Source: Parcubacteria group bacterium Greene0416_39 (GTDB taxonomy: Bacteria > Patescibacteriota > Minisyncoccia > Minisyncoccales > UBA10102). From it: DNA of 62,220 nucleotides. Position numbers and translations under genes: made by a program. The first letter of the stretch is position 1. The number at the start of each line of letters is the position of its first letter. The stretch covers positions 1 through 62,220 of the forward strand of contig VMEU01000006.1 in assembly GCA_007375675.1 (NCBI GenBank). Reading direction: 5' to 3'. The notes below the pieces were generated by a model. That model did not search any database, was not told where the DNA came from, and was given only the letters and a program-made list of their open reading frames with translations. Of this stretch, positions 827 to 39,059 are shown piece after piece.

Positions 827-837
827 ATGCTCTTTTT

Positions 838-967: not shown

Positions 968-1003
968 GAACAGTGATCACTAATTGCTAGTCGAGATCTA
1001 TTG
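967..1003 (-). other. 3' strand of the 23S processing stem
   Basis: This stretch is almost perfectly complementary to 5780-5820 over about 33 bases, with core GACTAGCAATTA. The two strands bracket 23S and merge with helix 1, as expected for an RNase III processing stem. Confidence 0.85.
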
Positions 1004-1109
1004 CACAACAACCATTAGTACTCCTCGGCTCAATCCCTTGCGGGACTTACACCTAGAGCCTATCAACCTCATGGTCTCTGAGGGGTCTTTGAGTCCTCAT
1101 CTTGAAGTT

Positions 1110-1142
<33 letters not shown>

Positions 1143-1259
1143 TTTCCGAACTTAGCTACCCAGCGATGCCCTAGGCAGGACAACTGGTACACCAGAGGTT
1201 CGTTCCCTGAGGTCCTCTCGTACTGTCAGGAACTCTTCTCAAGACTCGACGCCTACGGT

Positions 1260-1290
<31 letters not shown>

Positions 1291-1330
1291 GAACCCAACT
1301 CACGAACCGCTTTAATGGGCGAACAGCCCA

Positions 1331-2148: not shown

Positions 2149-2194
2149 ACCCTTGGCAGCTTCTCCACCACCAGGATGCGATGAGCCGACATCG

Positions 2195-3007: not shown

Positions 3008-3755
3008 ATGTGCCGAACGGAGCCGTAGATATGGACTCGCGGGCTCCACTAGCCTGTTATCCCCGGGGTAACTTTTGTCTGATGATCTTTGCGTTTTCTA
3101 CAAAAACGCATCGGTTCACTAAGTTCTGCTTTCGCACCTGCTCGACATATCCGTCTCGCAGTTAAGCTGGCTTGTGCCTTTACACGACCGCGAGGATTTC
3201 CATCCCTCGTTAGCCAACCTTATAAACGCCTCCGTTACTCTTTGGGAGGCAAGCGCCCCACTTAAACTGACCACCTCCCACTGTCATCCCTTGCGGGAAT
3301 TAGTTTTACCCTTTCAAAAGATGGGTGTTTCATTGTCGGCTCCATCCCGCCCGAAAGCGGAACTTCAAAGCCTACCCACTACGCTACGCATCCGAAATGA
3401 TAAAACAATAGGAAGCTACAGTAAAGCTCCCGGGGTCTTTCCGTCTAGCCGCAGGTAACCGGCATATTCACCGGTATTGCATTTTCACTGGACAGCTCCT
3501 GGAGACAGTTCCCCAGTCGTTACACCTTTCATGCGGGCCTCAACTTACGAGGCAAGGGGTTACGCTACTTTAACACGATTATAGTTATCGCGGACGTTCA
3601 CTGGGGCTTAGCTCAGTAAGCCCCCGCCACAAAGGCGGAGACCTCCAAGTTTAACACTCCAGCACTGGTCAGGTGTCAGCCCCTATACATCCTCTTACGA
3701 GTTTAGCAGGGACTTGTGTTTTTGGTAAACAGTCGCCAGGGATACATTCGCTGCG

Positions 3756-3840
3756 ACCCCGCACCACTTTGGCCTAAATTTTCACGAATTAACCATATCT
3801 TTTGGTCTTTCGTTAAATTAAAGACAAAGTGGTGCGGGGT
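3756..3840. repeat. Palindromic repeat family C inside the 23S helix 63 region
   Basis: The arms ACCCCGCACCACTTT and AAAGTGGTGCGGGGT flank an AT-rich centre with TTTCACGA and TTTGGTCTTTCGTT. By alignment it replaces the variable tip of helix 63 (about E. coli 1710-1750). A close copy lies at 13310-13393 in the 16S leader. Arms of the same type recur at 8826-8890 and 43293-43320 around other centres. Confidence 0.85.
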
Positions 3841-4356
3841 AGTCCTTATCGCGAACTTACGGACACTTTTTTGCCTAGTTCCTTCAGGAGCTTTCATCCA
3901 TTCACCTTGGCGCATTTACGCCAACCCACCTGTGTCGGTTTTCGGTACGGACTCATCAAACTCATATCCATGAAGCTTTTCTGGGAAGGATGCTCGCTTG
4001 AATCCTGTCCCGCGAACGGGACAGTTTCTCCAACGCTTGTCCTAACCTTGCGGCTAGGACTTAGCGCCAGAAACAGAAATCCCATAATCTGCTCAAGGTA
4101 CTATCCTTCGTCACTTTATGGAAGCATTTGACGAGGGGTAGGAATATGAACCTACTTTCCATCATCCCGAGCCTTTCGGCGAGGGACTAAGGACCGCCTA
4201 ACCCTTGGTCGATTACCGTTGCCAAGGAACCCTCGGGTTTTCGGTGTTCCGAGTTTTCATCGGAATTGTGGTTACTCATGCCAACATTCTCACTCCTCAT
4301 CGCTCCACCTTCACTTGCGTTAGGGCTTCACTGCAATGAGGACGCTTCCCTACCAC

Positions 4357-4389
4357 TCCGCCAACATCTTCGAAAGAAGTTGTGGCGGA
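4357..4389. repeat. Short palindrome in a 23S variable helix
   Basis: TCCGCCAACATCTT, the loop CGAA, and AGAAGTTGTGGCGGA form a hairpin. Nearly the same arms (CCCGCCAACATCT and AGTTGTGGCGGG) occur at 2244-2273 within the P8 region of the neighbouring intron. Confidence 0.7.
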
Positions 4390-5390
4390 ATTCTTATCTT
4401 CGGTACCAAGCTTAGCCCCTATGAATTTTTGGCGCAGAACTCCTTAACTAGTAAGCTGTTACGCACTTTTTAAAGGATAGCTGCTTCTGAGCTAACCTCC
4501 TAGCTATCAAAGGAATTCCACTGCCTTGTCTGTTCGCACTTAGCTTGAATTTGGGGACCTTAGATGAAGATCTGGGCTATTCCCCTTTAGAGACACGGAC
4601 CTTAGCGCCCGCGTTCTGACTGCCCACTATTCACTGAAGCATTCGAAGTTTGATAAGAAAACCTGGATTGCTCCAAAATTTTCTTTTCAGAGCTCTACCT
4701 CTCCAATGATTCGGTGGACGCTAGCCCAAAAGCTATTTCGGGAAGAACCAGCTATCACCAAGCTCGATTAGTTTTTCGCTTCTTACCACAGCTCATCCCA
4801 GAGGGTTGAACAACTCACGGGTTCGGACCTCCTCCACCACTTCTGGCGGATTCATCCTGGCCATGGCAAGCTCGCTTGGCTTCGGGTTTTATGCATACTG
4901 CATATTGTTCGCGCATTTAGCACTTGGTTTCCCTTTGCCTTCACTCCGTAATGGAGCTTAGACTGCAATATGCGATAAACTCGTTGGCTCGTTTCGCAAA
5001 AAATACGCCGTCAGGGGGTACCGGACGGCACCCCCCTCCGACTCTTTGTGGGCAAAATGGTTTCAGGTTCTGTTTCATCGCGATTACCTCGCTGCTTTTC
5101 ACCTTTCCCTCACGGTACTGGTTCACTATCGGTGATGTTGAGTATTTAGCCTTGGCCTGGTAGTCAGGCCTGATTCCCACGGGGCTTTCGTTCCCCATGG
5201 TACTTAAGAAAAATAGCAAGGAGCATGAAAGGGTTTTCGAATACAGGGCTTTCACCTTCTTTGGCCTCCCTTTCCAGGGTAGTTCTTCTAACGCCTTCAC
5301 CTAAGTGTTCTCCCTCGAATACTCCACTCCACGTCCCCTATACTACGGACATGGAGTAAAGCTCCGACGCCATTCCCTTGCAACCCCAAT

Positions 5391-5519
5391 CGTGACTCGC
5401 TGCTGCTCGTCACTTCCGCGGATACATGCGGATTTTTGCGGATTTATGCTGATAACGTATCCGCATAAATCAGCTGTATCCGTATAAATCAGCGGTGTGG
5501 CGAACAATAGTGAGCCACG
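5391..5519. repeat. Palindromic repeat family A inside 23S domain I
   Basis: Outer arms CGTGACTCGCTGCTG and CAATAGTGAGCCACG pair with transitions only, so the RNA stem is kept. The centre GGATTTATGCTGATA-ACGTATCCGCATAAAT matches the copy at 838-967 in direct orientation. The insert sits about 290-400 nt from the 23S 5' end, in a variable part of domain I. Confidence 0.88.
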
Positions 5520-5779
5520 ACTGGTTTAGGCTTCTCCCTCTTCGCTCGCCGCTACTAAGGGAATAATATTCGTTGTTTGTTCCTCTGGGTACTGAGATGA
5601 TTCACTTCCCCAGGTACGCTACCCCGTCATTCGACAGGGCTATCCCGATTTTCATCGGGATGGGTTTCCCCATTCGGAAATCTCCGGATCAAAGGCTGCT
5701 CACCGCCTCCCCGAAGCTTATCGCAGGCACGCCACGTCCTTCATCGCCTCAACATCCCAAGGCATCCACCATTTGCCCA

Positions 5780-5820
5780 TAACAATGCAATAGATACGAC
5801 TAGCAATTACTAATCACTGT
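5780..5820 (-). other. 5' strand of the 23S processing stem
   Basis: It pairs with 967-1003 over about 33 bases. The mature 23S 5' end should lie at its inner border near 5793. Confidence 0.85.
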
Positions 5821-5967
5821 ATCTCTGTATTCAGTTGTCAAAGTGCTCGCATGACCAACATAAAACCGCCTAGTTCTGAAGCGGTTCACAAACGAAATCA
5901 AAGGAGTCTGGTCTTTCAGCCGCTTCGAACGTTGTTGTTTGATTTTATATTACTCATGCGTGCAGCC

Positions 5968-5996
5968 AGTATATCGTACAGGAAAACCCGTGTCAA
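5968..5996 (-). promoter_or_regulatory. Sigma-70 promoter of the 23S-5S unit
   Basis: TTGACA (5996-5991) is followed after 17 bases by TATACT (5973-5968) on the minus strand, directly downstream of the mscS-like terminator. About 170 nt of leader precede 23S and include an imperfect hairpin GAACCGCTTCAGAAC-GCGGTTT. It shows that 23S-5S can be transcribed independently of 16S. Confidence 0.87.
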
Positions 5997-6000
5997 TAGG

Positions 6001-6037
6001 CAAAAGAAAACCGCCCCGCAAGACGCAAGGACGGTCT
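6001..6037 (-). terminator. Terminator of the MscS-like gene
   Basis: ACCGTCC pairs with GGGGCGGT across an 11-nt loop and is followed by TTTTCTTTT. It sits 20 bases after the stop codon of the gene at 6058 and directly before the -35 box of the 23S promoter. Confidence 0.75.
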
Positions 6038-6057
6038 CCTTTTTCTGTCTTCAAGCT

Positions 6058-6738
6058 CTATGGCTTGAATTTCCTTTTGAGATCCTGGAGAACTTCTCCT
6101 GCTACTTCTTTGCCTCCCAAGCCAAATGCCAAACCTCCTGCTACCACAAGGAACGCGACAACGCCTGTGAATAAAGTCTGGAGCAAGAAAGGAGTGACGC
6201 CAAGCTGGAGAAGAATTGCGATTATGGCAAAAATCCAGATTGACCACTTCACGATTACTCCAACAAAATGTCCGTACCCCATGCCAGATCCCTCTACGGT
6301 AGCTCGCAGTATCTTCTCTGTTAGTTCAGCGATAATCACTGCGACCACGAAGATAAGCGATGCAACAAGCACATTGGGGATGTACCCCAATACGCTAGTA
6401 AGGAATGCTGCAAACTGGGCCAACCCAAGAATCTCAACTGCCGCAAGCAGGAAGACAATCAAAAGCGCCCACTTAAAAAGCCCTCCCACAAACTCTGCTG
6501 GGTTTACCTTAATCTCTGCTTTTGCCAACGCATCTTTCCAGCCAGTTCCTGCAAAGAGCTGGTTAAACTGGATGCGCTTTAAAATGTCTGTCATCACTTT
6601 TTCTACTGCTTCTGCGACAAACCAACCAATCACAAACACAATCACCGCTCCTATCACTTGAGGAATAAATCCAAGAAATCCCTGCCACAAATTCGCAAGG
6701 GAGTTCAAGGTTACGCTATACCAATTGAGTAAAATCAT
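6058..6738 (-). CDS. Small-conductance mechanosensitive channel-like membrane protein
   Basis: The 226-aa protein has four or five predicted membrane segments. Two glycine-rich repeats (FIPQVIGAVIVFVIGWFVA and YIPNVLVASLIFVVAVIIAE) are typical of the conserved TM helix protein related to MscS. The last helix (VVAGGLAFGLGGKEVAGE) matches the pore-lining signature ALAFGLGGKD with a short tail, so the soluble MscS beta-domain is absent. It probably acts in the cytoplasmic membrane in osmotic adaptation. The start has no Shine-Dalgarno sequence. The gene is single, between the 23S promoter and nickel superoxide dismutase. Confidence 0.8.
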   Translation of the reverse strand: MILLNWYSVTLNSLANLWQGFLGFIPQVIGAVIVFVIGWFVAEAVEKVMTDILKRIQFNQLFAGTGWKDALAKAEIKVNPAEFVGGLFKWALLIVFLLAAVEILGLAQFAAFLTSVLGYIPNVLVASLIFVVAVIIAELTEKILRATVEGSGMGYGHFVGVIVKWSIWIFAIIAILLQLGVTPFLLQTLFTGVVAFLVVAGGLAFGLGGKEVAGEVLQDLKRKFKP

Positions 6739-6759
6739 ATGATGTAAAACTTGTTATGC

Positions 6760-6838
6760 CCCGTAGTAGAACTTTGGCTACCTTCGGCGACGATGTGTCT
6801 CGCGTAGCGAGACACATGCCAAAGTTTCACTACAGGGT
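6760..6838. repeat. Palindromic repeat family B, first copy
   Basis: Arms CCGTAGTAGAACTTTGGC and GCCAAAGTTTCACTACAGG surround CTTCGGCGACGATGTG and the inner palindrome TGTCTCGCGTAGCGAGACA. A second copy lies at 25865-25943 with its outer arms swapped but its centre in the same orientation. Confidence 0.88.
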
Positions 6839-6903
6839 ATGAATGAGTACAATCGACCTTTCCGGGTATTACGATAGTATACCAGGGGTCAAGGGAACTG
6901 TCC

Positions 6904-6912
6904 TGTGGATAA
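6904..6912 (-). promoter_or_regulatory. DnaA box-like nonamer
   Basis: TTATCCACA, the consensus DnaA box, reads on the minus strand upstream of the MscS-like gene. A weak promoter (AGGACA, 17 bases, TATACT) follows immediately. A single box can be chance; the same nonamer recurs at 61137-61145. Confidence 0.35.
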
Positions 6913-6995
6913 CTTAAGATAATGCAAATTTACGAATGACTGCGAATGTACAAATTCGAGTATTCGCGGCATTCGTTTTCATTTGTAGATTTGCA

Positions 6996-7457
6996 TTATT
7001 TATTCTTTGCGGCCTCAGTCTTTGCAAACATCTCTGCAATTTCCTCTACTACGTCCTGCAAGGCCTTTGCAGCTTCCATATTTACCTCCTGTTTTACCTT
7101 AGAGCAGAGTTTTGCAGCTTTCCAAAATTTCTCATGCAAGCCAGGAAACATTACAAGATGCTCTGGTTTGAAGTAATCGGTCCAGAGGATCAGTAGTTCT
7201 TTCTTGCACAGTTGCGCGTGCTCCTCTTTCACTGCAATATATCGAACCAGAGAATTTGCTTTGGAGGGTACAGGACTGTACCCTCCTTTGCCCTCCGCTA
7301 TCTCTGCTTTTTCAATAAGTTCCACCATGCGCACCACGGTTTTTGCCGCAGTTCTCGCAGGCTCTGGGGTATAAATCCCGCATGGAATATCGCAGTGGGC
7401 ATACACCATCTTGGCAGGGAAAAACTTGTTCAAAAACGAAAACATAGAATACAGCAT
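6996..7457 (-). CDS. sodN: Nickel superoxide dismutase precursor
   Basis: The 153-aa protein carries HCDIPCGIYTP, the nickel hook of Ni-SOD (family HCDLPCGVYDP), with His1, Cys2, Cys6 and Tyr9 all present. A second signature, LWTDYFKPEHL, also matches the family. The start at 7457 was chosen because a promoter ends 8 bases before it; it leaves a 20-residue leader that must be removed to expose the nickel-binding His. The enzyme dismutates superoxide to peroxide and oxygen. A lysine-rich C-terminal tail extends beyond the usual length of 117. No SodX leader peptidase gene is seen nearby, so processing must be encoded elsewhere or differ. Confidence 0.9.
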   Translation of the reverse strand: MLYSMFSFLNKFFPAKMVYAHCDIPCGIYTPEPARTAAKTVVRMVELIEKAEIAEGKGGYSPVPSKANSLVRYIAVKEEHAQLCKKELLILWTDYFKPEHLVMFPGLHEKFWKAAKLCSKVKQEVNMEAAKALQDVVEEIAEMFAKTEAAKNK

Positions 7458-7465
7458 ATGAGTGT

Positions 7466-7493
7466 AGTGTACCCCACTAAAAAAACGAGTCAA
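7466..7493 (-). promoter_or_regulatory. Promoter of sodN
   Basis: TTGACT (7493-7488), 16 bases, TACACT (7471-7466), then 8 bases to the ATG. This implies a leaderless or nearly leaderless mRNA and fixes the start choice. Confidence 0.7.
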
Positions 7494-7539
7494 GAGCGAG
7501 CAGTAGCCAAAAACCCATAAAAAGTGGTAGAGTGATGTA

Positions 7540-8463
7540 ATGAAGACCTGGGCATTCCTTGGAATCTTTTCTCTCCTCTTTTTCTGTTTTACCACCGCAC
7601 AAGCTCAAACTCTTAACGCGGGGCTGGTAAGCGGGATCTGGTATTCAAAAACTCCTTTCTTTGCCGGAGAAACCGTACGCATATACGCAGCAATACAGAA
7701 CAATTCAGGCTTTGATATTGCGGGAAAGGTGAAATTCTTAAAAGACGGCAGCGCTCTTGGAGAATTCTCTTTTTCTGCGGCAAAGGGCGGGCTCGTCCAA
7801 ACCTGGACAGACTGGAAGGCTCAAGAAGGAACGCACAAAATTATGGCTGAAGTTGTTGAAATGAAACGTCTCCAAATTGGAAAACCTCCAGAGTCCATAA
7901 CTCTGGGGTCTTCTGTCGGCGCTGCCAGTGTTGTGTCTGTGGAAAGAGACACAGACCAAGACCAAATTGCAGACCCCGAAGATCCTGATGACGACAATGA
8001 CGGACTCACCGATGAAAAAGAAACTATACTCAGAACCAACCCGCTTAACCCGGATACCGACGGTGACGGCATTAAAGACAACGTGGATAGAATTCTCGTG
8101 AAAGAATCAAAGGCAGGAGAAAAAATCTACTCTAACTTAGAAGAGCAGATTGATTCCTTTGTGGAAACAGTCACAGAAAAACTTGCGTCCTATAAAGAAG
8201 AGAGAACAAAACAACGCAAGTCCCCCTTCGGGGGATCTCCCGTAGGGAGAGAACCTTCCAAACCAGTCTTTGCGGGCACGATTCAAAAAATTGATGACGC
8301 CATTCCTATCTTTGAGATTCCAAAAGAACGCATACCCACAAAAGAGGGAATAACCGACTTCCTCCTTGCAGGAGCAATTACTGCTCTTCCCCAGTGGCGC
8401 ATTGGAGTTTTAATTATAGGAGGCATTCTTCTTTTTCAACTCATCCGCCGATTTTTCTTCTAA
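7540..8463 (+). CDS. Exported protein with thrombospondin type 3-like calcium repeats
   Basis: The 307-aa protein begins with a signal peptide (FLGIFSLLFFCFTTAQAQ). Residues about 25-120 form a beta-rich domain that looks like a CARDB/Big-type module. Residues 137-185 hold DxDxDxxxD repeats (DTDQDQIADPEDPDDDNDG and NPDTDGDGIKD), the calcium-binding TSP3 pattern. A C-terminal membrane helix (IGVLIIGGILLFQLI) anchors it. A short palindrome adds SPFGGSPVG near residue 227. It is the only plus-strand gene between 16S and 23S and is read head-on against any 16S read-through. The function is probably cell-surface; the partner is unknown. Confidence 0.75.
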   Translation: MKTWAFLGIFSLLFFCFTTAQAQTLNAGLVSGIWYSKTPFFAGETVRIYAAIQNNSGFDIAGKVKFLKDGSALGEFSFSAAKGGLVQTWTDWKAQEGTHKIMAEVVEMKRLQIGKPPESITLGSSVGAASVVSVERDTDQDQIADPEDPDDDNDGLTDEKETILRTNPLNPDTDGDGIKDNVDRILVKESKAGEKIYSNLEEQIDSFVETVTEKLASYKEERTKQRKSPFGGSPVGREPSKPVFAGTIQKIDDAIPIFEIPKERIPTKEGITDFLLAGAITALPQWRIGVLIIGGILLFQLIRRFFF

Positions 8464-8471
8464 AATTTTAG

Positions 8472-8543
8472 TGGACCCTGCCGGATTCGAACCGGCGACC
8501 TCTTCATTGCAAATGAAGCGCTCTACCACTAAGCTAAGGGCCC
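8472..8543 (-). tRNA. tRNA-Ala (TGC)
   Basis: The acceptor GGGCCCT/AGGGTCC, anticodon arm CTTCA-TTTGCAA-TGAAG and T-arm GCCGG-TTCGAAT-CCGGC all form. The anticodon is TGC. No CCA is encoded. It lies downstream of 16S and tRNA-Ile in the usual order. Confidence 0.95.
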
Positions 8544-8551
8544 ACGATCAC

Positions 8552-8727
8552 ACGGTTTCCCCCGACCCCCCTCTTTTAGAAACCCACGGTTTCTAACGCT
8601 CACTTCGTTCGCTGTTTTCCTACACGGGGGAAACCGACAAATTACCCCGTGGTGGAAAGATCCGACCCCGCAGCGCGGGGGAGCTAAGAAACCGAAGGTG
8701 TCTTAAGCTGGGGGTCGGGGTAATTTG
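8552..8727. repeat. Two large palindromes between tRNA-Ala and tRNA-Ile
   Basis: The first has arms CGGTTTCCCCCG and CGGGGGAAACCG (about 8555-8637). The second has arms AAATTACCCCG and CGGGGTAATTT with inner GATCCGACCCC/GGGGGTCGG (about 8639-8727). Both would fold into long hairpins in the precursor and could guide tRNA processing. They are built of G/C blocks as in other repeats of this window. Confidence 0.75.
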
Positions 8728-8731
8728 CTTG

Positions 8732-8805
8732 TGCGCGTGCCTGGACTCGAACCAGGGACCCCGTCATTATCAGTGACGTGCTCTAACCAGCTGAGCTACA
8801 CGCGC
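8732..8805 (-). tRNA. tRNA-Ile (GAT)
   Basis: The acceptor GCGCGTG/CACGCGC, anticodon arm CGTCA-CTGATAA-TGACG and T-arm CCTGG-TTCGAGT-CCAGG all form. The anticodon is GAT. It is 74 nt with discriminator A and no encoded CCA, and sits in the 16S 3' spacer. Confidence 0.95.
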
Positions 8806-8825
8806 ATTTACTCTGCCCCATTCTA

Positions 8826-8890
8826 AACCCCGCTCCACTTTTTTGCAAGAGAAACAGAATAACGTTACCCGTAAAAAGTGGGGCGGGGTA
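8826..8890. repeat. Palindrome with family C-type arms in the 16S-tRNA spacer
   Basis: CCCCGCTCCACTTTTT and AAAAAGTGGGGCGGGG pair around a centre containing GTAACGTT-like sequence. The arms resemble those of 3756-3840 and 13310-13393. Confidence 0.7.
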
Positions 8891-8928
8891 AACAAAAACA
8901 TGCCTTAAGTAAAGGCCTGCCTTGTTGT

Positions 8929-8953
8929 GTTAATCTCTGAAAGTTGTTCCTAC
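8929..8953 (-). other. 3' strand of the 16S processing stem
   Basis: This 25-base segment pairs with 13240-13264 with only G-U-compatible changes (core GTAGGAACAACT). It fixes the outer limits of the 16S precursor and leaves about 105 nt between the stem and helix 45. Confidence 0.87.
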
Positions 8954-9104
8954 CTCATCCTGCGAAACCTCGCAGGATAGGAGCCGACATATATAGGTTA
9001 TCGACTAACACCACACATTAGTGTGCAAATTTTACACACCAATAATGATCGACACTCAAAGAATGAAATGATCCACGCACAGCTTCCGCTACGCGTGCCT
9101 TGTT

Positions 9105-9947
9105 CATGTTTCTCCACGTCTTTCGACGGGCATGGACTATATCTTCATCCTGCATCTCTTTTGCAGGAGCCAACGTGTAGTCTCTACGGGGTCAAGAGTT
9201 TATATCGCAACGAAGGGTGGACAAATTTCCTGACAATGTTATTGAATTTTTCTTTCGATGCTTTCCCAAAATACAAACGGTATCCAGAATTATTCCACTG
9301 ATGCGTAGAATCCAATCCAAGGCTCTCCCTGAATATTTTCTGAACTACCTTAACTTGTTTGAGTGAAAGTCTCTGTACATTCAACAAAAGTCCATGATCT
9401 TTTCCATTTTGTCCTTTTAACTTTCCTCCATCATCCATAAACCAAACAGCTAACACAATGGGATGCCTTAAGAATATACCAAGATCTTTTGGTAGAATCT
9501 TTCTCCCACGTCTATAGAAAACTTTATGCCACCTTGTAAGCTCTGGGTGGCTTATGGTTCGAAATCTCCAAGAGCTTGTCTTTGCCTGGAATTTGGGTTT
9601 TGAGAAAACCCAGTTCTCAAAAACTTTATATTTCCACCATAAGTAAGCTTTCTGTCTCTCTCCATGTCCGATCTGAAGTCTCCAGTTTGTTTCCCATCCG
9701 TTGGGCAGCAAACACGCATCCCCCAATAAGGTTCCAAAAAGAACCCTCTCTTGGTATGGAGTGAACCGATTGAGATTTTCTCTAAAATCCCTAAGGGCTC
9801 TTGAATTTGTGTTAACTCTTCTTCCGACTTCCCTCGGTATTACCTTCATTCATTCATTTTATCACAAAATGAATAGGAGGGCTCCACCGATACAGTTAGA
9901 TTTTTCTACCCCTTCTCAAGGGTAGGTCGCAAAGTCCTCGTTGGACC
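9105..9947 (-). other. Group I intron near the 16S 3' end (about E. coli 1498)
   Basis: The 5' exon ends AAGTCGT and the 3' exon begins AACAAGG, restoring the conserved AAGTCGTAACAAGG, so the junction is U1498/A1499. The intron ends in G. The core contains GTATCGGTGGAGCCC, and the P7 strands are GTAGAGACTA and GATATAGTCC. The length is 843 nt with one endonuclease ORF. Confidence 0.86.
9184..9849 (-). CDS. LAGLIDADG homing endonuclease of the 16S intron near 1498
   Basis: The 221-aa protein has motifs LFGTLLGDACL (near residue 38) and LAVWFMDDGG (near residue 138). It is homologous in layout to the endonucleases of the two 23S introns, and all three share the block around the second motif (VWFMDDGG). 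The ORF begins shortly after the P3/P4 core and ends right at P7. Its 30-residue N-terminal extension is basic. The predicted role is homing into 16S at the mRNA-decoding helix 44/45 junction. Confidence 0.9.
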   Translation of the reverse strand: MKVIPREVGRRVNTNSRALRDFRENLNRFTPYQERVLFGTLLGDACLLPNGWETNWRLQIGHGERQKAYLWWKYKVFENWVFSKPKFQAKTSSWRFRTISHPELTRWHKVFYRRGRKILPKDLGIFLRHPIVLAVWFMDDGGKLKGQNGKDHGLLLNVQRLSLKQVKVVQKIFRESLGLDSTHQWNNSGYRLYFGKASKEKFNNIVRKFVHPSLRYKLLTP

Positions 9948-10032
9948 ACGACTTAGCCCCTCTCACCGAGCCCAGCTTATTTACCCTTGCGGGCACTTTC
10001 GGCTGTTCCCGGCTCGCTTGGCTTGACGGGCG

Positions 10033-10872
10033 AATATTTTCTACGAACTTAGAATTGACGTTCCCATCGCGCCTGCGGATTTCCCGCACGCGACGAGCTC
10101 TAGTGCATCTGCTGTTTTAAAGCATACAGATTTGCTAACCCTATTTTGGTCAAATGTTCTCCCTTCTTAATTCTTTTCATCAAATCGCAGAAAATTCTGA
10201 AGTCTTTCAGCTTAGATTTTAATCGCAATCGGTATCGCCTAAAGAAAGGAACGATAATTTTCTCCAAATCCTTTCTATTCGCTACCTCATAGCGATAGCA
10301 ATTCTGATGATTCTTTCGTTTATCCACTTGGAAGTAGACATTTCCACAGCGAAAGAACTCTTTAAGCTTATAGAGAATATCTTTATCCCTTTCAATAAGC
10401 TTAAGATAGAATCGAGGTTCAACTTTGACTCTTCTTTTTACTTGTGTTTGTATCTGAGGATTCTTCACGTACACCGTAAAGCTTCCTTCCCCATCTACAA
10501 GCCCAAGAATGTAATCAGGAGTTAACATAATTAGAGAAAGTCCTTCCCCTTGCGGGTACTATGACTTAGCTGACTTCTGACGCTGCGTAAGTTCATTATA
10601 TCTCACATCCTGTGAAATAACAACGTCAGATCTCCTCGGGTTACTCAGTACTCTATTCCAGGCATCCTAGATGGACTTTCATTCTAACCTTCCTCATCCT
10701 CACCGCCTGTAATGAGTCGGTCATCCATTGTTTTTCTAGGCTGTCTTTTGCCGCCAGGTCCTTCGCTTGCCATCTCGCGATGGCAAACTACCTTTTGGCT
10801 ACGTCCCGAAGGCGTACATCGGGAGTGCGGATTTGAACCGCACAGAATACTAAGCTGCCGAGCGCTTTTATT
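10033..10872 (-). other. Probable group II intron at the 16S decoding site (about E. coli 1399)
   Basis: The exon halves CTGCACTCAC and CGCCCGTC join to the universal 1391-1408 segment, so the insertion is near C1399/C1400. Unlike the other four introns it lacks the P7 pair GAGACT/ATAGTC. Near its 3' end a hairpin has a 9-bp lower stem (CTCGTCGCG/CGCGATGGG), a two-base bulge on the 3' side and a 5-bp upper stem (TGCGG/CCGCA) closed by GAAAT, the shape of domain V. Upstream of the ORF lies GTCAGAAGTCAGCTAAGTC, which I recall from bacterial group II introns. A clear GTGYG 5' end is missing, so the class is probable, not proven. Confidence 0.6.
10100..10528 (-). CDS. Single-motif LAGLIDADG endonuclease or maturase in the 16S intron near 1399
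   Basis: The 142-aa protein begins MLTPDYILGLVDGEGSF, one LAGLIDADG helix (YILGLVDGEGSF), followed by a fold with FYLKLIERDKDIL and a lysine/arginine-rich C-terminus. One motif means it should act as a homodimer; it belongs to a different LAGLIDADG family from the four two-motif proteins in this window. It occupies the position of domain IV in a presumed group II intron, where a reverse transcriptase is normally found; none is present here. It may serve in homing, in splicing, or both. Confidence 0.87.
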   Translation of the reverse strand: MLTPDYILGLVDGEGSFTVYVKNPQIQTQVKRRVKVEPRFYLKLIERDKDILYKLKEFFRCGNVYFQVDKRKNHQNCYRYEVANRKDLEKIIVPFFRRYRLRLKSKLKDFRIFCDLMKRIKKGEHLTKIGLANLYALKQQMH

Positions 10873-11342
10873 GTGAGTGCAGGACCCAGGAACATATTCC
10901 GCGCCACATGGCTGATTGGCGCGTACTAGCGATTCCGACTTCATGAGGTCGAGTTTCAGACCTCAATCCGAACTGAGGAATAGTTTAAGGGATTAGCTCC
11001 GCGTTGCCGCCTTGCAACCCTCTGTCTATTCCATTGTAACATGTGTGCCGCCCAGGATATCAAAGGGCCACGCTGACTTGGCGTCATCCCCGCCTTCCTC
11101 TTGGTTGTCCCAAGCAGTTCTCTGTGACACATAAAACACAGAGTAGGGGTTGCGCATGTTGCCCGATTTAACGGAGCGCCTCAAGGTACATGCTGACGAC
11201 AGCCGTGCAGCACCTGGACTAATGTCCTTGTGGGTGGCCCCGACTTTCGTCGGGGTTTCATTAGTCTGTCAAACCCTGGTAAGGTTCTTCGGTTGTTGAC
11301 GAATTAAGCCACATGTTCCACCGCTTGTGTGGGTCCCCGCCT

Positions 11343-11374
<32 letters not shown>

Positions 11375-11470
11375 TCCCAGGCGGGATGCTTAACGCGTTA
11401 GCTTCGCCACGTGAAGGGTCGACACTTCACATAGCCAGCATCCAATGTTTAGGGCGTGGACTACAAGGGT

Positions 11471-12449
11471 CATCTTGTAGAATTTTTACTATCCGTGTTG
11501 CCACGGAGATCGGACTATATCACTTTCTGAAATCGCTTATACCTTGATTTTTTCTCTGCAAGATATTTTTCTATCACGTCACGAGAAAACGATGTTTTCT
11601 CGACGACTTCAGAAATCCAGCGTTCTTGTAATTGGGAATCTTTGTAAAGAAGAATAACTTTGGGTAGTATACTTGCCACTGGAACATACGGTAGAATGAT
11701 GCGTAAGAACTTTTTGAGTTCTTCGCTCGAACGGATCCATAATCGGTAATACTCACGCTTTGTCCCGTCACGCTCTCGAACAATCTTCGCAATCGCGACT
11801 TTAACTTTCCAGACCTTCTGCAGGTACTGTGCTAAAATCTTTTGGTCTTCGAGCAGAAACGGGTCCGTGCAAAACACTCCGCGTTTTCCATTACCAATCA
11901 ACGAACCATCATCAAGCCACCACACCGCCAACGAAAGCGGTGTCAGCTGGTTAAGCCATTTTCGCTTAATGACTAAGCGATTATGCTTATGGGTCAGCTG
12001 GTATAATTCACTAAGTTGCTCTAGTGCTAGGCTCTGATATCGCAACATTTCTCCACCATAGCCATTCGGTTCTTGCTTCCACCAGCATTTTTCTCCGGAA
12101 ATCTCTTTCAACTGTTCAACTTTCCAGAAGAAATAATCCTGTTGGAGAACCGAGTGACGAAAAGAAAAACGTGCGTTCTTGTAGGGTTTTTGGATCCTTA
12201 AAGATCCGTCACCAAGCAAAGAACCCAGCATAACTTCTTTACATCGATCCGACAAAAATGAATGCTTTGTATTCATTTTCTATCTTCTTACTTACATAGT
12301 CTCTACGGGGTCAATACCTCTATCGAGGCTGACTTCCCTCGGGATTGTCCGTTCGACTGAACGGAGTTCCCCGATATAGCTAGATGCGCACTCCGATGTT
12401 GCCACCGAAGGGGACACCATTCGTCTCGTTTCATACGAGACAAGGATTT
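11471..12449 (-). other. Group I intron in the 16S 790 loop (about E. coli 793)
   Basis: The 5' exon ends GGATTAGAT and the 3' exon begins ACCCTTGTAGTCC. Joining restores the conserved 785-806 segment with the junction at 793/794. The intron ends in G. P7 is formed by GTAGAGACTA and GATATAGTCC. Unlike the other group I introns, its core (TATCGGGGAACTCC ... GAGGGAAGTCAGCC) lies entirely 5' of the ORF, and the ORF sits inside the P8-side loop. The length is 979 nt. Confidence 0.86.
11515..12276 (-). CDS. LAGLIDADG homing endonuclease of the 16S intron near 793
   Basis: The 253-aa protein has motifs VMLGSLLGDGSLRI (near residue 15) and LSLAVWWLDDGSL (near residue 115). Between them are WKVEQLKEISG and similar blocks of the two-motif family. 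It is the longest of the five and carries an extra basic C-terminal region (YLAEKKSRYKRFQ). It starts 25 bases after the first P7 strand, so translation does not run through the ribozyme core. It is likely to be active, with acidic residues in both motifs. Confidence 0.9.
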   Translation of the reverse strand: MNTKHSFLSDRCKEVMLGSLLGDGSLRIQKPYKNARFSFRHSVLQQDYFFWKVEQLKEISGEKCWWKQEPNGYGGEMLRYQSLALEQLSELYQLTHKHNRLVIKRKWLNQLTPLSLAVWWLDDGSLIGNGKRGVFCTDPFLLEDQKILAQYLQKVWKVKVAIAKIVRERDGTKREYYRLWIRSSEELKKFLRIILPYVPVASILPKVILLYKDSQLQERWISEVVEKTSFSRDVIEKYLAEKKSRYKRFQKVI

Positions 12450-13188
12450 ATCTAATCCTTTTTGCTCCCCACGCTTTCGTCCCTCACCGTCAGGGTTGCC
12501 CCAGCTGAATGCTTTCGCCTTTGGTGTTCTTCTCGATATCAACGGATTTCACCCCTCCACCGAGAATTCCATCAGCCTCTAACACCCTCTAGCCCGCCAG
12601 TTTTCCCTGCAGTTCCAAGGTTGAGCCCTGGACATTTAACAAGAAACTTGGCGGGCCGGCTACGGACGCTTTACGCCCAGTAAATCCGGATAACGCTTGG
12701 AGGCTCTGTTTTACCGCTACTGCTGGCACAGAGTTAGTCCCTCCTTATTCTCAGGGTACCTTCTTCCCTCGATTGCTCTCGGGATTATTCCCCTGCAAAA
12801 GTGGTTTACAACCCGAAGGCCTTCATCCCACACGCGGTGTCGCTGGATCAGGGTTTCCCCCATTGTCCAATATTCTCGGCTGCTGCCTCCCGTAGGAGTA
12901 TGGCCCGTATCTCAATGCCATCGTTGGGGAACGCGCTCTCACGCCCCCTACCCGTCATAGCCTTGGTAGGCTTTTACCCTGCCAACTAGCTGATAGGACG
13001 CAGACCGCTCCCAAAGTGGATTACTCCTTTACCCTTCGATTGCTCTCAGGGACCATCGGGAATTAGCTCCGCTTTCGCGGAGTTATGCCCGTCTTTGGGG
13101 TACGTATCTACGTGTTACTAACTCGTTTGCCGCTGCTCCCTCGGTCTTGCGACCTCGGGAACCGCTTGACTTGCATGCCTTATCCACA

Positions 13189-13224
<36 letters not shown>

Positions 13225-13239
13225 TGGCTAAACTTGAGA

Positions 13240-14372: not shown

Positions 14373-15081
14373 TGGCAGTCGTAATTTTTTCTTTGAGCTT
14401 TAAAAGGATATATGCAATGGAACTGGCAGCGTCGTCGTTGGCTGGAATTAGGAAGTCAAGGAGCGAAGGGTCGCAGTTGGTGTCGCAGACTGCAAACGTG
14501 AGAATCTTTTTTTTCTTTGCTTCTTTTACTGCAAGCTCGTTTTCGTCAAGGTCGCACACGAACACAGCGTCAGGAAGCTTCATAAGATTTCTTATCCCTC
14601 CAAATTTCACTTCAAGACCCTTCCTCTCTTCTTCGAGTTTTGCCTGCTCCTTTTTTGTGTACTTTGCAATGTCGCCAGACTCTTTCATCTTTTCTATCTC
14701 CAGGAGCCGCTGAATCCTTTTTGAAATGCCTTCAAAGTTGGTTAAGGTGCCTCCAATCCAACGCTCGCAAATGTATGGAAGACCAAGTACTTTTGCAGTT
14801 TCCATAACCTGGCTTTTTATCTGAATCTTTGTTCCAACAAAAAGGATATTCTTGCCTTCCTGTTTGAGTTTTACCAGAGCTTCAAGCGCTTCTGCAAGTT
14901 TTTCCTTGGTCTTTTCAAGGTCAATAATATGAACGGTGTTTTTCACCCCTCCAATAAAAGGCTTCATCTTTGGGTGAGTCTTGGATGTTTTATGCCCAAA
15001 GTGAAGACCCGCTGCCATCATCTCTTCAATGACAGGGTCTTTCTGTATTTCTAGTTTTGCTTCAATAACTTCTTGTGCCAT
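14359..15081 (-). CDS. rpsB: 30S ribosomal protein uS2
   Basis: The 240-aa protein starts MAQEVIEAK and has the uS2 signatures LHFGHKTSKTHPKM, FVGTK, WIGGTLTNF and PDAVFVCD. An upstream in-frame ATG at 15117 exists, but a promoter whose -10 ends 7 bases before 15081 supports the shorter start. uS2 binds near uS1 and uS5 at the back of the 30S neck. It is first in the rpsB-tsf operon and divergent from rpmE. Confidence 0.95.
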   Translation of the reverse strand: MAQEVIEAKLEIQKDPVIEEMMAAGLHFGHKTSKTHPKMKPFIGGVKNTVHIIDLEKTKEKLAEALEALVKLKQEGKNILFVGTKIQIKSQVMETAKVLGLPYICERWIGGTLTNFEGISKRIQRLLEIEKMKESGDIAKYTKKEQAKLEEERKGLEVKFGGIRNLMKLPDAVFVCDLDENELAVKEAKKKKILTFAVCDTNCDPSLLDFLIPANDDAASSIAYILLKLKEKITTANGNN

Positions 15082-15088
15082 ACATACC

Positions 15089-15117
15089 CTTGTACCACAG
15101 AGAACAAAGGATATCAA
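15089..15117 (-). promoter_or_regulatory. Promoter of rpsB
   Basis: TTGATA (15117-15112), 17 bases, TACAAG (15094-15089), then 7 bases to the ATG. A leaderless transcript is implied, although AAGGG also precedes the ATG. Confidence 0.6.
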
Positions 15118-20803: not shown

Positions 20804-21794
20804 GAGCTATAACTTCTACATGTTTCACTAACGTGGAAGCGTATCCCCATTCGTTGTCGTACCACGATAGCACTTTTACCAGGTCTCCGTCAATAACCCT
20901 CGTAAACGAAAGGTCTATGATTGCTCCATAAGGCTCCCCTATGATGTCTGAAGAAACAATAGGGTCTTTTGTCACCTTGAAAATCCCCTTCCATTTGGGC
21001 AAAGCGGCAGCATCTTCAAGGATTTTGTTGATTTCTTCTACGCTTGTTTTGCGCTTTGCAACAAAGGTGATGTCTGCAATGGAACCTGCGACAATAGGCA
21101 CTCTCATTGCGATGCCATCAAACTTGCCTTCCAGTTCTTTCACGGCACGGGTCACTGCAATGGCTGCTCCTGTACTTGAAGGAACAATATTTTGACCAGC
21201 AGCTCTGCCGCGCCTCACGTCAGAACCTTTCACTGGTCCGTCAACCAAATTCTGGGTTGCGGTATACCCATGCACCGTGTTTAAAATTGCTTTTTTAATT
21301 CCCGGGTTTTCGCTCAACACCTGAACAACCGGAGCAGCAGCATTGGTAGTGCAAGAACCATTTGAAGAAATGGTGCAGCTTTTCAAATCGTCTTCATTGA
21401 TTCCCATTAACACTGTTTTACCTCCTATTTCTTCACCCCCGACCAAACCCGTCTGCTGGCGAGCAGGAGCAGTAAGAACCACCCGCTTTGCTCCTGCCTT
21501 GAGGTGCAGACTCGCTAACTCATACGACTCAAAGGCTCCAGTTGATTCCACCACAATATCCACGCCAAGCTCTTTCCAAGGAAGTTTTACAGGGTCTTTT
21601 TCTTGGAGAACTTTCATCCCTTCCAATCCTCTATTAAATTTCCCATAGACCGTATCGTACTTGAGCAAATATTCCAAATTCTCCACGTCCCCTAAATCAT
21701 TAATCGCAACAACCTCAAACTCCGACAAGTCTGTGATCTGCCGAAAGAAAAGCCGCCCAATTCTCCCAAACCCATTTATAGCAATCCTTGTCAT
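20793..21794 (-). CDS. gap: Glyceraldehyde-3-phosphate dehydrogenase
   Basis: The 333-aa protein starts MTRIAINGFGRIGR, the NAD-binding Rossmann fingerprint. The catalytic Cys is in SNGSCTTNA (residue about 150), with His in NTVHGYT and the S-loop ending at GRAAGQNIVPSSTGAA. The C-terminus SWYDNEWGYASTLV is canonical. It oxidises glyceraldehyde-3-phosphate to 1,3-bisphosphoglycerate, the substrate of pgk (50189). The start was chosen over an in-frame ATG 54 bases upstream because of the family N-terminus. TACAAT boxes lie directly before it, suggesting a leaderless mRNA. Confidence 0.96.
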   Translation of the reverse strand: MTRIAINGFGRIGRLFFRQITDLSEFEVVAINDLGDVENLEYLLKYDTVYGKFNRGLEGMKVLQEKDPVKLPWKELGVDIVVESTGAFESYELASLHLKAGAKRVVLTAPARQQTGLVGGEEIGGKTVLMGINEDDLKSCTISSNGSCTTNAAAPVVQVLSENPGIKKAILNTVHGYTATQNLVDGPVKGSDVRRGRAAGQNIVPSSTGAAIAVTRAVKELEGKFDGIAMRVPIVAGSIADITFVAKRKTSVEEINKILEDAAALPKWKGIFKVTKDPIVSSDIIGEPYGAIIDLSFTRVIDGDLVKVLSWYDNEWGYASTLVKHVEVIARTI

Positions 21795-21878
21795 ATTGTA
21801 GTATTGTACCACGCAAAAAAGAAAAGAGGAAGCCATACGGCCCCCCAAACCTGCTTTTTACACAAGCCTATTGAAGAA

Positions 21879-22184
21879 TTAATACTCCAATTTCATTCCA
21901 AGCTTCCCGGCGAGCTGCTGAATCCATTTTTCGTGGCGAGTTGTCTGCATTGCTATTGCAGAGTATTCAATCCTCAAATCATCTATTGCTTTTGCAAGAC
22001 TATCAATTGCAGTGGTCAGATGATGCACAGACTCCTCAAGTTTTTCTACTCTTTCAGCGAGATTCTGTATCTGTATGCGTAATTCAAAAACGTCTTCCTT
22101 TGTGGCGGTCTTTTCAAGCTTCTCGTTTACTTTTTCGAACTTTCCATCCAGATATTCAATTAACTCAGAGAAATCCTGGTTCAT
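21879..22184 (-). CDS. Coiled-coil hypothetical protein
   Basis: The 101-aa protein is almost entirely a coiled coil (heptads in residues 12-75, e.g. IQNLAERVEKLEESVHHL) with a C-terminal cap RHEKWIQQLAGKLGMKLEY. Similar short proteins are frequent in Parcubacteria; no function is known. The promoter has consensus -35 and -10 boxes and the ATG follows 6 bases later. Confidence 0.75.
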   Translation of the reverse strand: MNQDFSELIEYLDGKFEKVNEKLEKTATKEDVFELRIQIQNLAERVEKLEESVHHLTTAIDSLAKAIDDLRIEYSAIAMQTTRHEKWIQQLAGKLGMKLEY

Positions 22185-22190
22185 AGCTCT

Positions 22191-22218
22191 ATTATAGATC
22201 CTCCAAAATGAGTGTCAA
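22191..22218 (-). promoter_or_regulatory. Consensus promoter of the coiled-coil gene
   Basis: TTGACA (22218-22213), 16 bases, TATAAT (22196-22191), then AGAGCT and ATG. Both hexamers are perfect, and the spacing to ATG implies a leaderless mRNA. Confidence 0.85.
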
Positions 22219-23652: not shown

Positions 23653-24504
23653 TCATATATGTTCGTCTTTGAGAAATTTCTGCATAAGGTACAGGTTAGA
23701 CCTCATCCATGCTTTTTTGTTCCCACACTCCAGCCACTTTCCTTCAAGCTCATAGCCATACATGACCCTTCCCTCGTTTACCATATCTCCCAATGTCTCC
23801 CCAAACGAAATCTCTCCTTGTTTATTGGGCTTTGCCTTTTTAAGATAATCAAACACGTCTGGAGTGATGATTCTCCTTCCTGGCATTGCAAGGTTTGAAG
23901 GAGCAGTCCCTGGCTCTGGCTTCTCCATAATCTTTCTAATCTTGGTGAGCCGTGTCGCAATCTGCTCTCCCTGGCACACGCCATACAAATGAAGTTGGTC
24001 TTCAGGGAGTGCAAATAGCCCGGTGACCGGACACTGCGCGCTTCTGAAAATCTTGGCCAATTGCGCTAAAGCTGGCACTTTTGATTCTATCACATCATCC
24101 GGGGAAAGCACAAAGCAAGGTTCGTCTCCTATAAGCTTTTGAGCCTGGAGTATCGCGTGCCCTTCGCCTAAAGGCCTTGTTTGCTGTACGAACGAAAACG
24201 ACATGCCCTCAAATGCTTTCTGAAGACCCTTTAACTCCTCGAGGGCCTGCGTTGCTTTACGTTCTTCCAAGAGTTTCTCAAGGATTGGAGACCGTTTTAA
24301 GTACTCAGAAAGAAACCTGAAATTCCTTGCGTCTACCACAAACACAACGTGTTTTACTCCGGAGTCTACCATTTCTTCAAGCGCGTAGTGAACCAATGGC
24401 TTGTCAGCAAGGGGAAGAAATTCTTTAGATACTGCCTTAGACAGGGGAAAAAATCTTGTTGCAAGACCTGCGGCAGGAACAATCGCTTTGGTGATCTCGG
24501 TCAT
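23653..24504 (-). CDS. galU: UTP-glucose-1-phosphate uridylyltransferase
   Basis: The 283-aa nucleotidyltransferase has the N-terminal loop AAGLATRFFPLSKAVSKEFLPL, in which the usual GxGTR is modified to LATR, and DKPLVHYALEEMVDSG. LSPDDVI holds the metal-binding Asp, and KWLECGNKKAW is the C-terminal signature of GalU. It makes UDP-glucose for polysaccharides and lipids. The ATG overlaps the ftsZ stop (ATGA), so translation is coupled. Confidence 0.9.
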   Translation of the reverse strand: MTEITKAIVPAAGLATRFFPLSKAVSKEFLPLADKPLVHYALEEMVDSGVKHVVFVVDARNFRFLSEYLKRSPILEKLLEERKATQALEELKGLQKAFEGMSFSFVQQTRPLGEGHAILQAQKLIGDEPCFVLSPDDVIESKVPALAQLAKIFRSAQCPVTGLFALPEDQLHLYGVCQGEQIATRLTKIRKIMEKPEPGTAPSNLAMPGRRIITPDVFDYLKKAKPNKQGEISFGETLGDMVNEGRVMYGYELEGKWLECGNKKAWMRSNLYLMQKFLKDEHI

Positions 24505-25802
24505 GCTTTCTTGGCGCGCAAAAACGCGGGGATATCCCAGGCTTTTTCTTTTTCTTGGAGTTCTTCGATTTCTTCTTCAATTGCCTTCTGAAGCTCAAGC
24601 GCGTTTCTCCTTGGTTGAACCTGAAGAACCGGCTCCTGTTTCTCTGCGGAAGATCCCCCGAAGGGGGAGGGTTTTTCTTTTGTTTTTGGAGTCTCTTTTC
24701 TCAGAGCAAGACGAGCTTGCTTTTTCTGTTGTATTACAAGCGGTAAGCTCCTTGGCTTGGGAACCTCTCTCTGTACGGTTTTTGCTTGTTCCTTTTGAAC
24801 TCCCAGCGCAAACAGCGTAATCCTCATTTTCTTCTCAAGCGCATTCTGCAAAGTGATGCCAAAAATAACTTTTGCTTTAGGGCTTTCCTGGGAAAGCGCC
24901 TTGCAAACCTGAGAAACCTCCTGCATCTTCAAATCTTTTCCCCCTGAAATGTTGAAAAGCACTCGCTCTGCTCCTTTGCTTGAGTATTCAAGCAACGGGT
25001 TTGCCAGCACTTGCTCCAAAACCACGCTGGCGCGATCTTGGCCAGAAGAAACTGCGCTTGCGAGGTAGCTCAACCTATCTTTCCCTTCCAACAAAGACTG
25101 AATATCTGCAAAATCAATGTTGATAAGCCCTGGCAAAGAAAGAGTTTCCATAAAACCTTGGAGGCTTTCTGCGAGTTTTTTGTTGAGGGCAGAAAGCGCA
25201 ACGGTAAAGGAAACTTGTTTTTCAACAATGCCAAATATGTTGTCATTGGGAATTAAAACGTACGCATTCACCAATGGTTTCAATTTTTCTAAACAAGAAA
25301 GTGCCAGCTCCCTCCTTTTTTCTCCTTCAAAAGAAAAAGGCATGGTGAAAATGCCAATGGTCAAACATTTAAGTTCTTTTGCAGTCTGCAAAAACACGGG
25401 GGCAGCGCCAGTGCCTGTGCCTCCCCCAAGCGAAGCAACGAGGATAAGAAGGTCTTGCCCTTCCATGAGCTTTACAAGCTTTTCTTTGTCTTGTTGGGCT
25501 GCTGTTTCTCCCAAAACAGCGTCCATGCCGCATCCCAACCCATGGGTGAGCTTCTCTCCAAATGTAAAAGTCTTAACATTCTTGCGAGCAATTTGCCGCA
25601 ATGCCTGAACGTCTGTGTTTGCCGCGACAAAATCAAGTTTTTTTACGCGCTGGGCAATCTCTGCAATAATGTTGCTCCCGCCCCCGCCCACTCCCACCAT
25701 TTTAATCTTTGGCTTGTACACCCTGTCAAATATATCCTGTGCTTTGGCCCGCCCTAATGCCTTGCCGGCTTTAGGCGGGTTTTTGATTTTCTTTTTTGCC
25801 AT
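24501..25802 (-). CDS. ftsZ: Cell division protein FtsZ
   Basis: The 433-aa protein has VGVGGGGSN near residue 40 and the tubulin signature GGGTGTG near residues 126-132, with the T7-loop region NIDFADIQSLL. It polymerises with GTP into the Z ring. The linker (residues about 330-405) is basic and contains SPFGGSSAEK derived from a palindromic repeat (24652-24670). The C-terminal peptide WDIPAFLRAKKA keeps the FtsA/membrane-partner motif DIPAFLR. It heads the ftsZ-galU-nnrD operon. Confidence 0.95.
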   Translation of the reverse strand: MAKKKIKNPPKAGKALGRAKAQDIFDRVYKPKIKMVGVGGGGSNIIAEIAQRVKKLDFVAANTDVQALRQIARKNVKTFTFGEKLTHGLGCGMDAVLGETAAQQDKEKLVKLMEGQDLLILVASLGGGTGTGAAPVFLQTAKELKCLTIGIFTMPFSFEGEKRRELALSCLEKLKPLVNAYVLIPNDNIFGIVEKQVSFTVALSALNKKLAESLQGFMETLSLPGLINIDFADIQSLLEGKDRLSYLASAVSSGQDRASVVLEQVLANPLLEYSSKGAERVLFNISGGKDLKMQEVSQVCKALSQESPKAKVIFGITLQNALEKKMRITLFALGVQKEQAKTVQREVPKPRSLPLVIQQKKQARLALRKETPKTKEKPSPFGGSSAEKQEPVLQVQPRRNALELQKAIEEEIEELQEKEKAWDIPAFLRAKKA

Positions 25803-25808
25803 TCATAT

Positions 25809-25837
25809 AGTCTACTTAAAACAAAACACCCCGTCAA
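25809..25837 (-). promoter_or_regulatory. Promoter of ftsZ
   Basis: TTGACG (25837-25832), 17 bases, TAGACT (25814-25809), then 6 bases to the ATG. A leaderless mRNA is implied. Confidence 0.75.
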
Positions 25838-37940: not shown

Positions 37941-38999
37941 TTACTTAGCAAGAATATACGCGGACGAAGGCCCTTTGCCAACCTGGCTAATCATTTTTAG
38001 TTTCTTAAGTTTTTGCAGGCATAATTGAGCTGTCCTTTTAGGACATCCAAGAACATCCATTACGTCCTGCACCGTAATCTTACTCACTTGATCTAAAAAT
38101 TCAAGGATTTTCATCTGGTCTTTATTAAGATAAATCTGGGATGTGATGTTTTGATCAATTTTTCGCAAAGCGAGAGTGGCAACCTTGGCCTTTACGTTAT
38201 CAATTTCCTCTTTGAAGCCACGCACGAAGTACTCGAGCCAGCGAGTAAAATCAATCTTCCTTTCTTCGTAGGTTCTGCCCAAATTGATAGCCTTGTAGTA
38301 TTTTGACCGATCTGTATTATAGTAATCCTCCAGCGCAAAGAGCCGCCTAAAATCGTAGCCCCGAGCGTAGAGAACTAAAGTTGCAAGCGCCCGGGCGGTT
38401 CGGCCATTACCGTCGGCAAACGGGTGAATAGCTGCAAATTCCGCATGCGCTATGCCAGCGGCAATAATCGGGTTGACCCCATTCTTATCGCTTTTCTGTA
38501 TCCACTCTACCAAATCTCTCATAAGTTGAGGGACCTTCTTAGCCTCGGGTGCCGTATAGACGGTCTCTTGCGGCATGCCGAGCCGTCTCCTTACGACATG
38601 CACAGGGCCCTTCCTATAGTGGCCGGATTGTTCTTCAGGCAAGGTCTTGTTGGTAACTAATGCATGAATTTTTAATATTGCCTTTTCGGTAATAGGCAGT
38701 TTTCTCTCAACCATCTGGCTGATATAACGCAATGCTTTAATATAATTCTCAACTTCATATATATCGCGCGCGGGCGCATCAATTTTTTGATGCCCAAGAA
38801 TCGCCTCCACTTGATTGAGATTTAGCATGTTGCCTTCAATGTGCGTAGAGCTGTGCGTCATTCGGATCAACGCCTGACGCCTTAGTCGAAGCTCTTGTTT
38901 TGGAAGAAGTTTCGCACGCCCAATCACCACCCTTGCCTCGGCTATGGCGGTAAGCATATTGAGAATTATATTGGTAAGCCTGTAGCGCAGATGTAACAT
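37941..38999 (-). CDS. Fic family protein with N-terminal inhibitory motif and C-terminal winged helix
   Basis: The 352-aa protein has the Fic motif HPFADGNGRTARAL near residue 195, which transfers AMP or a similar group to proteins. SSTHIEGN near residue 52 is the inhibitory helix motif (S/T)xxxE(G/N), placing it in class II (N-terminal inhibition). Residues 275-350 form a helix-turn-helix (VQDVMDVLGCPKRTAQLCLQ). Three phased repeats overlap its promoter, so autoregulation is likely. The ATG follows the -10 box by 8 bases. Confidence 0.92.
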   Translation of the reverse strand: MLHLRYRLTNIILNMLTAIAEARVVIGRAKLLPKQELRLRRQALIRMTHSSTHIEGNMLNLNQVEAILGHQKIDAPARDIYEVENYIKALRYISQMVERKLPITEKAILKIHALVTNKTLPEEQSGHYRKGPVHVVRRRLGMPQETVYTAPEAKKVPQLMRDLVEWIQKSDKNGVNPIIAAGIAHAEFAAIHPFADGNGRTARALATLVLYARGYDFRRLFALEDYYNTDRSKYYKAINLGRTYEERKIDFTRWLEYFVRGFKEEIDNVKAKVATLALRKIDQNITSQIYLNKDQMKILEFLDQVSKITVQDVMDVLGCPKRTAQLCLQKLKKLKMISQVGKGPSSAYILAK

Positions 39000-39007
39000 A
39001 TATACGT

Positions 39008-39059
39008 ATTATAACGCCCATTACATAATCGCGCAAGTATCGCGCAATTAATCGCGCAA
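39008..39059 (-). promoter_or_regulatory. Promoter and triple operator of the fic gene
   Basis: TATAAT (39013-39008) has TTGCGC (39036-39031) as -35 box at 17 bases. The sequence TTGCGCGAT occurs three times, at 39036-39028, 39047-39039 and 39059-39051, spaced 11 and 12 bases, i.e. on one DNA face, and the proximal copy covers the -35 box. It looks like a repressor site for the Fic protein's own winged helix. Confidence 0.7.

Follow-up and report, generated by a model that had tools for sequence, protein, structure and literature searches.

How are gene starts found when the promoter leaves no room for a 5′ leader? The question is raised by five minus-strand genes of the window, by which we mean the whole stretch of 62,220 nucleotides analysed here, taken from the genome of an uncultured Parcubacteria-type bacterium. 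The preliminary description had reported -10-to-ATG gaps of 6, 6, 8, 7 and 8 nt for a coiled-coil protein gene, ftsZ, sodN, rpsB and fic, and all five promoters were confirmed on the sequence (Table 1). The boxes of the coiled-coil gene match the sigma-70 consensus, the -10 box of rpsB lacks the final T, and the sodN product was identified by a match to PF09055 (E=5e-42). As the -10 hexamer of E. coli usually ends 6-7 nt before +1, applying this distance to the five spacings would put the first transcribed base at the A of the start codon or at most 3 nt before it. Several genes share an upstream TTTCTAACGGG-ATG or a closely similar sequence directly before the start (44630(-) and 56110(-) in the window, others in L035, L026 and L025), and one protein encoded at 54133-55308 (-) of the window combines a sigma-70 region 4 match with a HARE-HTH domain and is a possible transcription factor.

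Table 1. Promoters, genes and 16S rRNA features of the window, with positions counted from its first letter.
Feature	Position (strand)	Composition
Coiled-coil gene promoter	22182..22218 (-)	TTGACA 22213-22218, 16-nt spacer, TATAAT 22191-22196, 6 nt, ATG 22182-22184
Coiled-coil protein gene	21879..22184 (-)	101 aa; Pfam matches only weak, coiled-coil-like
ftsZ promoter	25800..25837 (-)	TTGACG 25832-25837, 17-nt spacer, TAGACT 25809-25814, 6 nt, ATG 25800-25802
ftsZ	24501..25802 (-)	433 aa; Tubulin + FtsZ_C
sodN promoter	7455..7493 (-)	TTGACT 7488-7493, 16-nt spacer, TACACT 7466-7471, 8 nt, ATG 7455-7457
rpsB promoter	15079..15117 (-)	TTGATA 15112-15117, 17-nt spacer, TACAAG 15089-15094, 7 nt, ATG 15079-15081
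fic promoter	38997..39036 (-)	weak -35 TTGCGC 39031-39036, 17-nt spacer, TATAAT 39008-39013, 8 nt, ATG 38997-38999
GAPDH gene, further leaderless-type site	21792..21808 (-)	TACAAT 8 nt before ATG 21794; no good -35
Only 16S rRNA gene	13230 to about 9061-9069 (-)	three or more insertions, carrying LAGLIDADG ORFs at 11515-12276, 10100-10528 and 9184-9849
16S last exon	9060..9104 (-)	helix 45 with GGAA loop, GGATCA 9069-9074, then TTTCATTCT, not CCTCCTTTC

The genome-wide count of -10 boxes 5-9 bases before starts that the preliminary description had proposed as a check was made on 18 stretches including the window, 312 kb in all, or 60% of the 517-kb source genome (14 contigs, 97% complete). Genes were called by codon usage and the first ATG was taken as the start, a simple annotation rule. 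A -10 box was scored when a match to TAnnnT of at least 4/6 ended 5-9 nt before the ATG, a two-box promoter additionally required a -35 box at 16-18 nt, and the chance level was taken from dinucleotide shuffles, which keep composition. Such a -10 box preceded 42 of the 130 lead genes, against 10.3±3.1 in shuffles, and a two-box promoter preceded 18 of them, against 1.3±1.3, with a sharp peak of the two-box counts at exactly 6 nt before the ATG. TATAAT was the top 6-mer found without supervision upstream of lead genes (24 vs 2), and among 117 cases at the order level the -35 matches peaked at spacers of 16-18 (44 hits, vs about 4 per spacer elsewhere). The same pipeline run on E. coli K-12 as a negative control scored 1 of 64 lead genes and recovered the expected SD peak. 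The shuffle excess, the 6-nt peak, the recovery of TATAAT, the -35 spacing and the E. coli result therefore indicate that this geometry is an artefact neither of A/T-richness nor of the method. Because about two thirds of lead genes have no -10 box at 5-9 nt, most genes are not demonstrably leaderless. For those that carry the box, transcription with a leader of 0-3 nt is the best reading of the promoter geometry, the start positions being placed by that geometry.

The arrangement is also conserved. When the upstream regions of ftsZ were compared among 30 genomes, the source genome included, whose orthologues are about 37-55% identical, 17 had two-box promoters ending 5-9 nt ahead of the start codon, against a shuffle mean of 0.59 and maximum of 3. 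Most of these promoters read TTGACA-N16-18-TACACT/TACAAT, and their spacers are unrelated in sequence. The gap from -10 box to ATG stays at 6-9 nt across the relatives while the spacer changes, and the N-termini are similarly Lys-rich. For rpsB, 7 of 26 genomes had a two-box promoter, against 0.61 in shuffles, and other relatives carry TACAAA or TACAAG variants at a similar distance. Selection keeps promoter and start codon together, which makes little sense if transcription does not begin at the codon or right beside it.

Two other accounts of the short gaps were weighed. If the promoters were real and the true starts lay further downstream, misannotation would be hiding ordinary leaders, and some ORFs do contain later in-frame ATGs (e.g. 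sodN at 7445 and fic at 38957). We regard this as quite unlikely, since the ftsZ spacing and N-termini just described hold across relatives and the 6-nt peak persists where the first ATG is unambiguous, the box lying at exactly 6 nt in 19 of 149 such genes. An A/T-rich translation enhancer or unstructured zone in place of a -10 box would suit the A/T-richness of upstream regions near starts and the mild rise of TAnnnT at 6 nt in operon-internal genes as well. It would explain neither why a TTGACA-like box is far commoner 16-18 nt upstream than at other spacings nor the two-box excess over composition-keeping shuffles, and we give it very little credence.

Most bacteria locate the starts of their genes with the anti-SD of 16S rRNA. 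As the LAGLIDADG-bearing insertions interrupt the 16S gene, its Rfam match ends before the true 3′ end, which was read from the last exon. The tail is GGATCA-TTTCATTC in place of the canonical GGATCA-CCTCCTTT, and the CCTCC of the anti-SD is absent. No CCUCC follows helix 45 in this single copy (GGATCATTTCATTC), the same is seen in relatives, and a search of the genome for a second 16S copy or a canonical tail found none. SD tetramers precede genes of the source genome at the background rate (0.08 vs 0.07 at controls). The ribosome with weak or no SD recognition that the preliminary description had suspected is borne out by both observations; with no CCUCC, initiation cannot use SD pairing and starts must be recognised in another way. 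The rRNA operon itself (711-13230 (-) of the window) is rich in insertions: the 16S LAGLIDADG ORF at 10100-10528 adjoins group-II-like RNA matches, two more LAGLIDADG ORFs (2313-2951 and 1403-2083) lie just past the 23S match, and sodN and a plus-strand ORF (7540-8463) lie between tRNA-Ala and 23S.

A replacement for the lost pairing was sought in the altered tail. Variant SD pairing with its CATTC is unsupported, as k-mers complementary to the tail were not enriched at internal genes and only marginally so at lead genes. The conserved YWNCATTTT was likewise set aside as a new anti-SD; because this region can form a small hairpin (CAUUC-UUU-GAGUG), a processing signal is just as likely, and the fold itself is not significant (z -0.2 to -1.5).

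Loss of the anti-SD extends over the order of the source genome. CCTCC was absent in 14 of 14 genomes of the first set, the source genome included, and in 26 of 26 order genomes with a readable tail once two wider samples were included. Within the class, CCTCCTTTCT is kept by several families and gone from several others, and nearly all other classes sampled keep CCTCC. This survey is a sample and not a census, because the search pattern recovers the tail in only about half of the genomes. Named matches to the tail type of the source genome were Nealsonbacteria, Wildermuthbacteria, other Parcubacteria or Patescibacteria records, and one record labelled "Lokiarchaeota", whose contig was probably mis-binned. 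In many class members GGAACA takes the place of GGATCA after helix 45, and the 16S tail in the class often lies within a small inverted repeat that changes together with the anti-SD.

SD4 upstream of internal genes, pooled by group, was found in 14 of 261 genes in this order, 7 of 161 in class members that keep CCTCC, and 48 of 174 in other classes. The low count in the second group indicates that SD had already gone from internal genes in members of the class whose anti-SD is intact. In genomes without an anti-SD, AGGAG nevertheless occurs 4-9 nt before the ATG in 17 of 440 lead genes (about 4%, vs 2.0 expected), AGGAG and GGAGG being the two most enriched G-rich purine 5-mers at leads; internal genes of these genomes have no excess of either. 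Such residual SDs are unexpected if SD pairing is impossible; they may be left over from an earlier state, have arrived by recent transfer, or work by another route. Canonical SDs (e.g. AAAAGGAGGTG) stand before some genes despite a 16S without anti-SD, as at L026:1487-2335(-), L036:2881-3408(-) and L027:9164-10234.

The build of the promoters, their excess over chance, the conserved ftsZ arrangement, the altered 16S tail and the absence of SD enrichment are read directly from the genomes. The reading that we favour on these observations, with a probability of about 80%, is that about a quarter to a third of lead genes (the first genes of their operons) are leaderless through sigma-70-type promoters and that a ribosome without an anti-SD chooses starts by other means, the transcription start sites and the initiation route being deduced. 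Transcription of these genes would then begin with the A of the start codon or 1-3 nt ahead of it, yielding a leaderless mRNA. Its start codon is most likely read at the 5′ end itself, and such direct recognition of a 5′ AUG is known from other bacteria.

It is tempting to derive the leaderless promoters from the loss of the anti-SD, as a consequence of it or an adaptation to it, and the order without an anti-SD does have the highest leaderless-type share, with 117 box hits at 5-9 nt in 345 leads, against 60 in 258 in other classes with intact CCTCC. Yet leaderless-type lead promoters were present in all groups compared, and genomes with an anti-SD and working SD still have them: in G178, SD motifs precede 44% of internal genes and 16 of 44 leads are leaderless-type. 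As relatives that keep CCTCC have a comparable share, the loss of SD recognition does not by itself account for the leaderless promoters, and we consider that derivation improbable. The preliminary description had joined short promoter gaps to a ribosome with little or no SD recognition; both halves stand, on the promoter geometry and the missing anti-SD respectively, and the causal tie that it implied does not, given the similar leaderless share in CCTCC-keeping relatives. Leaderless promoters are wider than the anti-SD loss, and probably older. The simplest history, drawn from a limited sample, would have leaderless leads arise first and phylum-wide, SD then disappear at the root of the class or close to it, and the anti-SD erode repeatedly after that. 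The chances seem about even that the Parcubacteria-type class has been caught dismantling SD initiation, in which case leaderless promoters came before the loss of SD from mRNAs with the anti-SD kept, repeated independent anti-SD losses followed, starts were left to 5′ ends, coupling and the U-AUG context, and residual SDs are relics or are read otherwise.

Leaderless genes in mycobacteria and Deinococcus occur beside an intact anti-SD, and other genes there use SD; the source genome differs in having no anti-SD and SD use at background. A TA-like -10 signal lying some 10 bp ahead of the start has been taken as evidence of leaderless genes, which exceed 20% of genes in some phyla (PMC3160421), and the TA-led genes of Actinobacteria and Deinococcus-Thermus in that work resemble those of the source genome in this signal near the start. 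Absence of CCUCC with scarce SD is described in PMC10783764 for Flavobacteriia, Carsonella and Hodgkinia, and its 2024 table holds one or two CCUCC-less genomes each of Campbellbacteria, Wolfebacteria, Absconditabacteria and Peribacter; 128 organisms lacking CCUCC appear in PMC6107228. These organisms share with the source genome the lack of CCUCC in the 16S tail and the scarcity of SD motifs, and as far as the accessible text of both papers goes, no link is drawn between the loss and leaderless promoters in CPR. Compared with the cases described there, the loss here spans a whole order and recurs within the class, where a retained ancestral state allows comparison. In Bacteroidia, the anti-SD is present and sequestered by bS21/bS18/bS6, and SD is abandoned genome-wide (PMC9976891). 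The likeness lies in that abandonment, which CCTCC-keeping members of the present class also show; however, the anti-SD of this order is lost rather than held by those proteins, and bS21 was not found in the source genome and exceeded the cut-off in only 2 of 20 genomes. Nanoarchaeia and other archaea combine leaderless mRNAs with a lack of CCUCC (PMC10783764), as here, but with archaeal promoters and initiation factors in place of sigma-70-type promoters and bacterial IF3, which is present in the source genome.

Bacterial leaderless genes with a TA signature and anti-SD loss in Flavobacteriia, reduced symbionts and a few CPR genomes are thus already known. A genome-wide leaderless architecture with promoters conserved in the lineage, the order-wide anti-SD loss and the dissociation of the two are new; our literature search, of incomplete coverage, found no paper on leaderless mRNAs in CPR. 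CPR make up a large share of bacterial diversity, and translation start there is little studied. If the reading is correct, start prediction in such genomes should weight promoter-proximal ATGs over SD, SD-dependent expression constructs would be predicted to work poorly in such bacteria, and the class would offer many natural replicates, with anti-SD kept or lost, in which to study what allows a bacterium to do without one.

For operon-internal genes, starts would likely be set by translational coupling from ATGA overlaps together with a U-AUG-A/G start context. In the source genome, 30% of internal genes overlap the upstream gene by ATGA. T occupies position -1 at about 50% of starts, vs 23-29% for control ATGs, an enrichment seen at internal and lead genes alike, and position +4 has a raised share of A. 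Kozak-like start contexts have been described in Flavobacterium (PMC6847099). That U-1 adds to the pairing with the initiator tRNA is a suggestion, and stays one because no tRNA with the canonical GGG-CCC initiator anticodon arm was found in the genome. A tRNA-Met (CAT) at L033:15035-15107(-), with the loop CCCATAA (C, not U, at position 33) and an AGG/CCT arm, is a possible initiator candidate.
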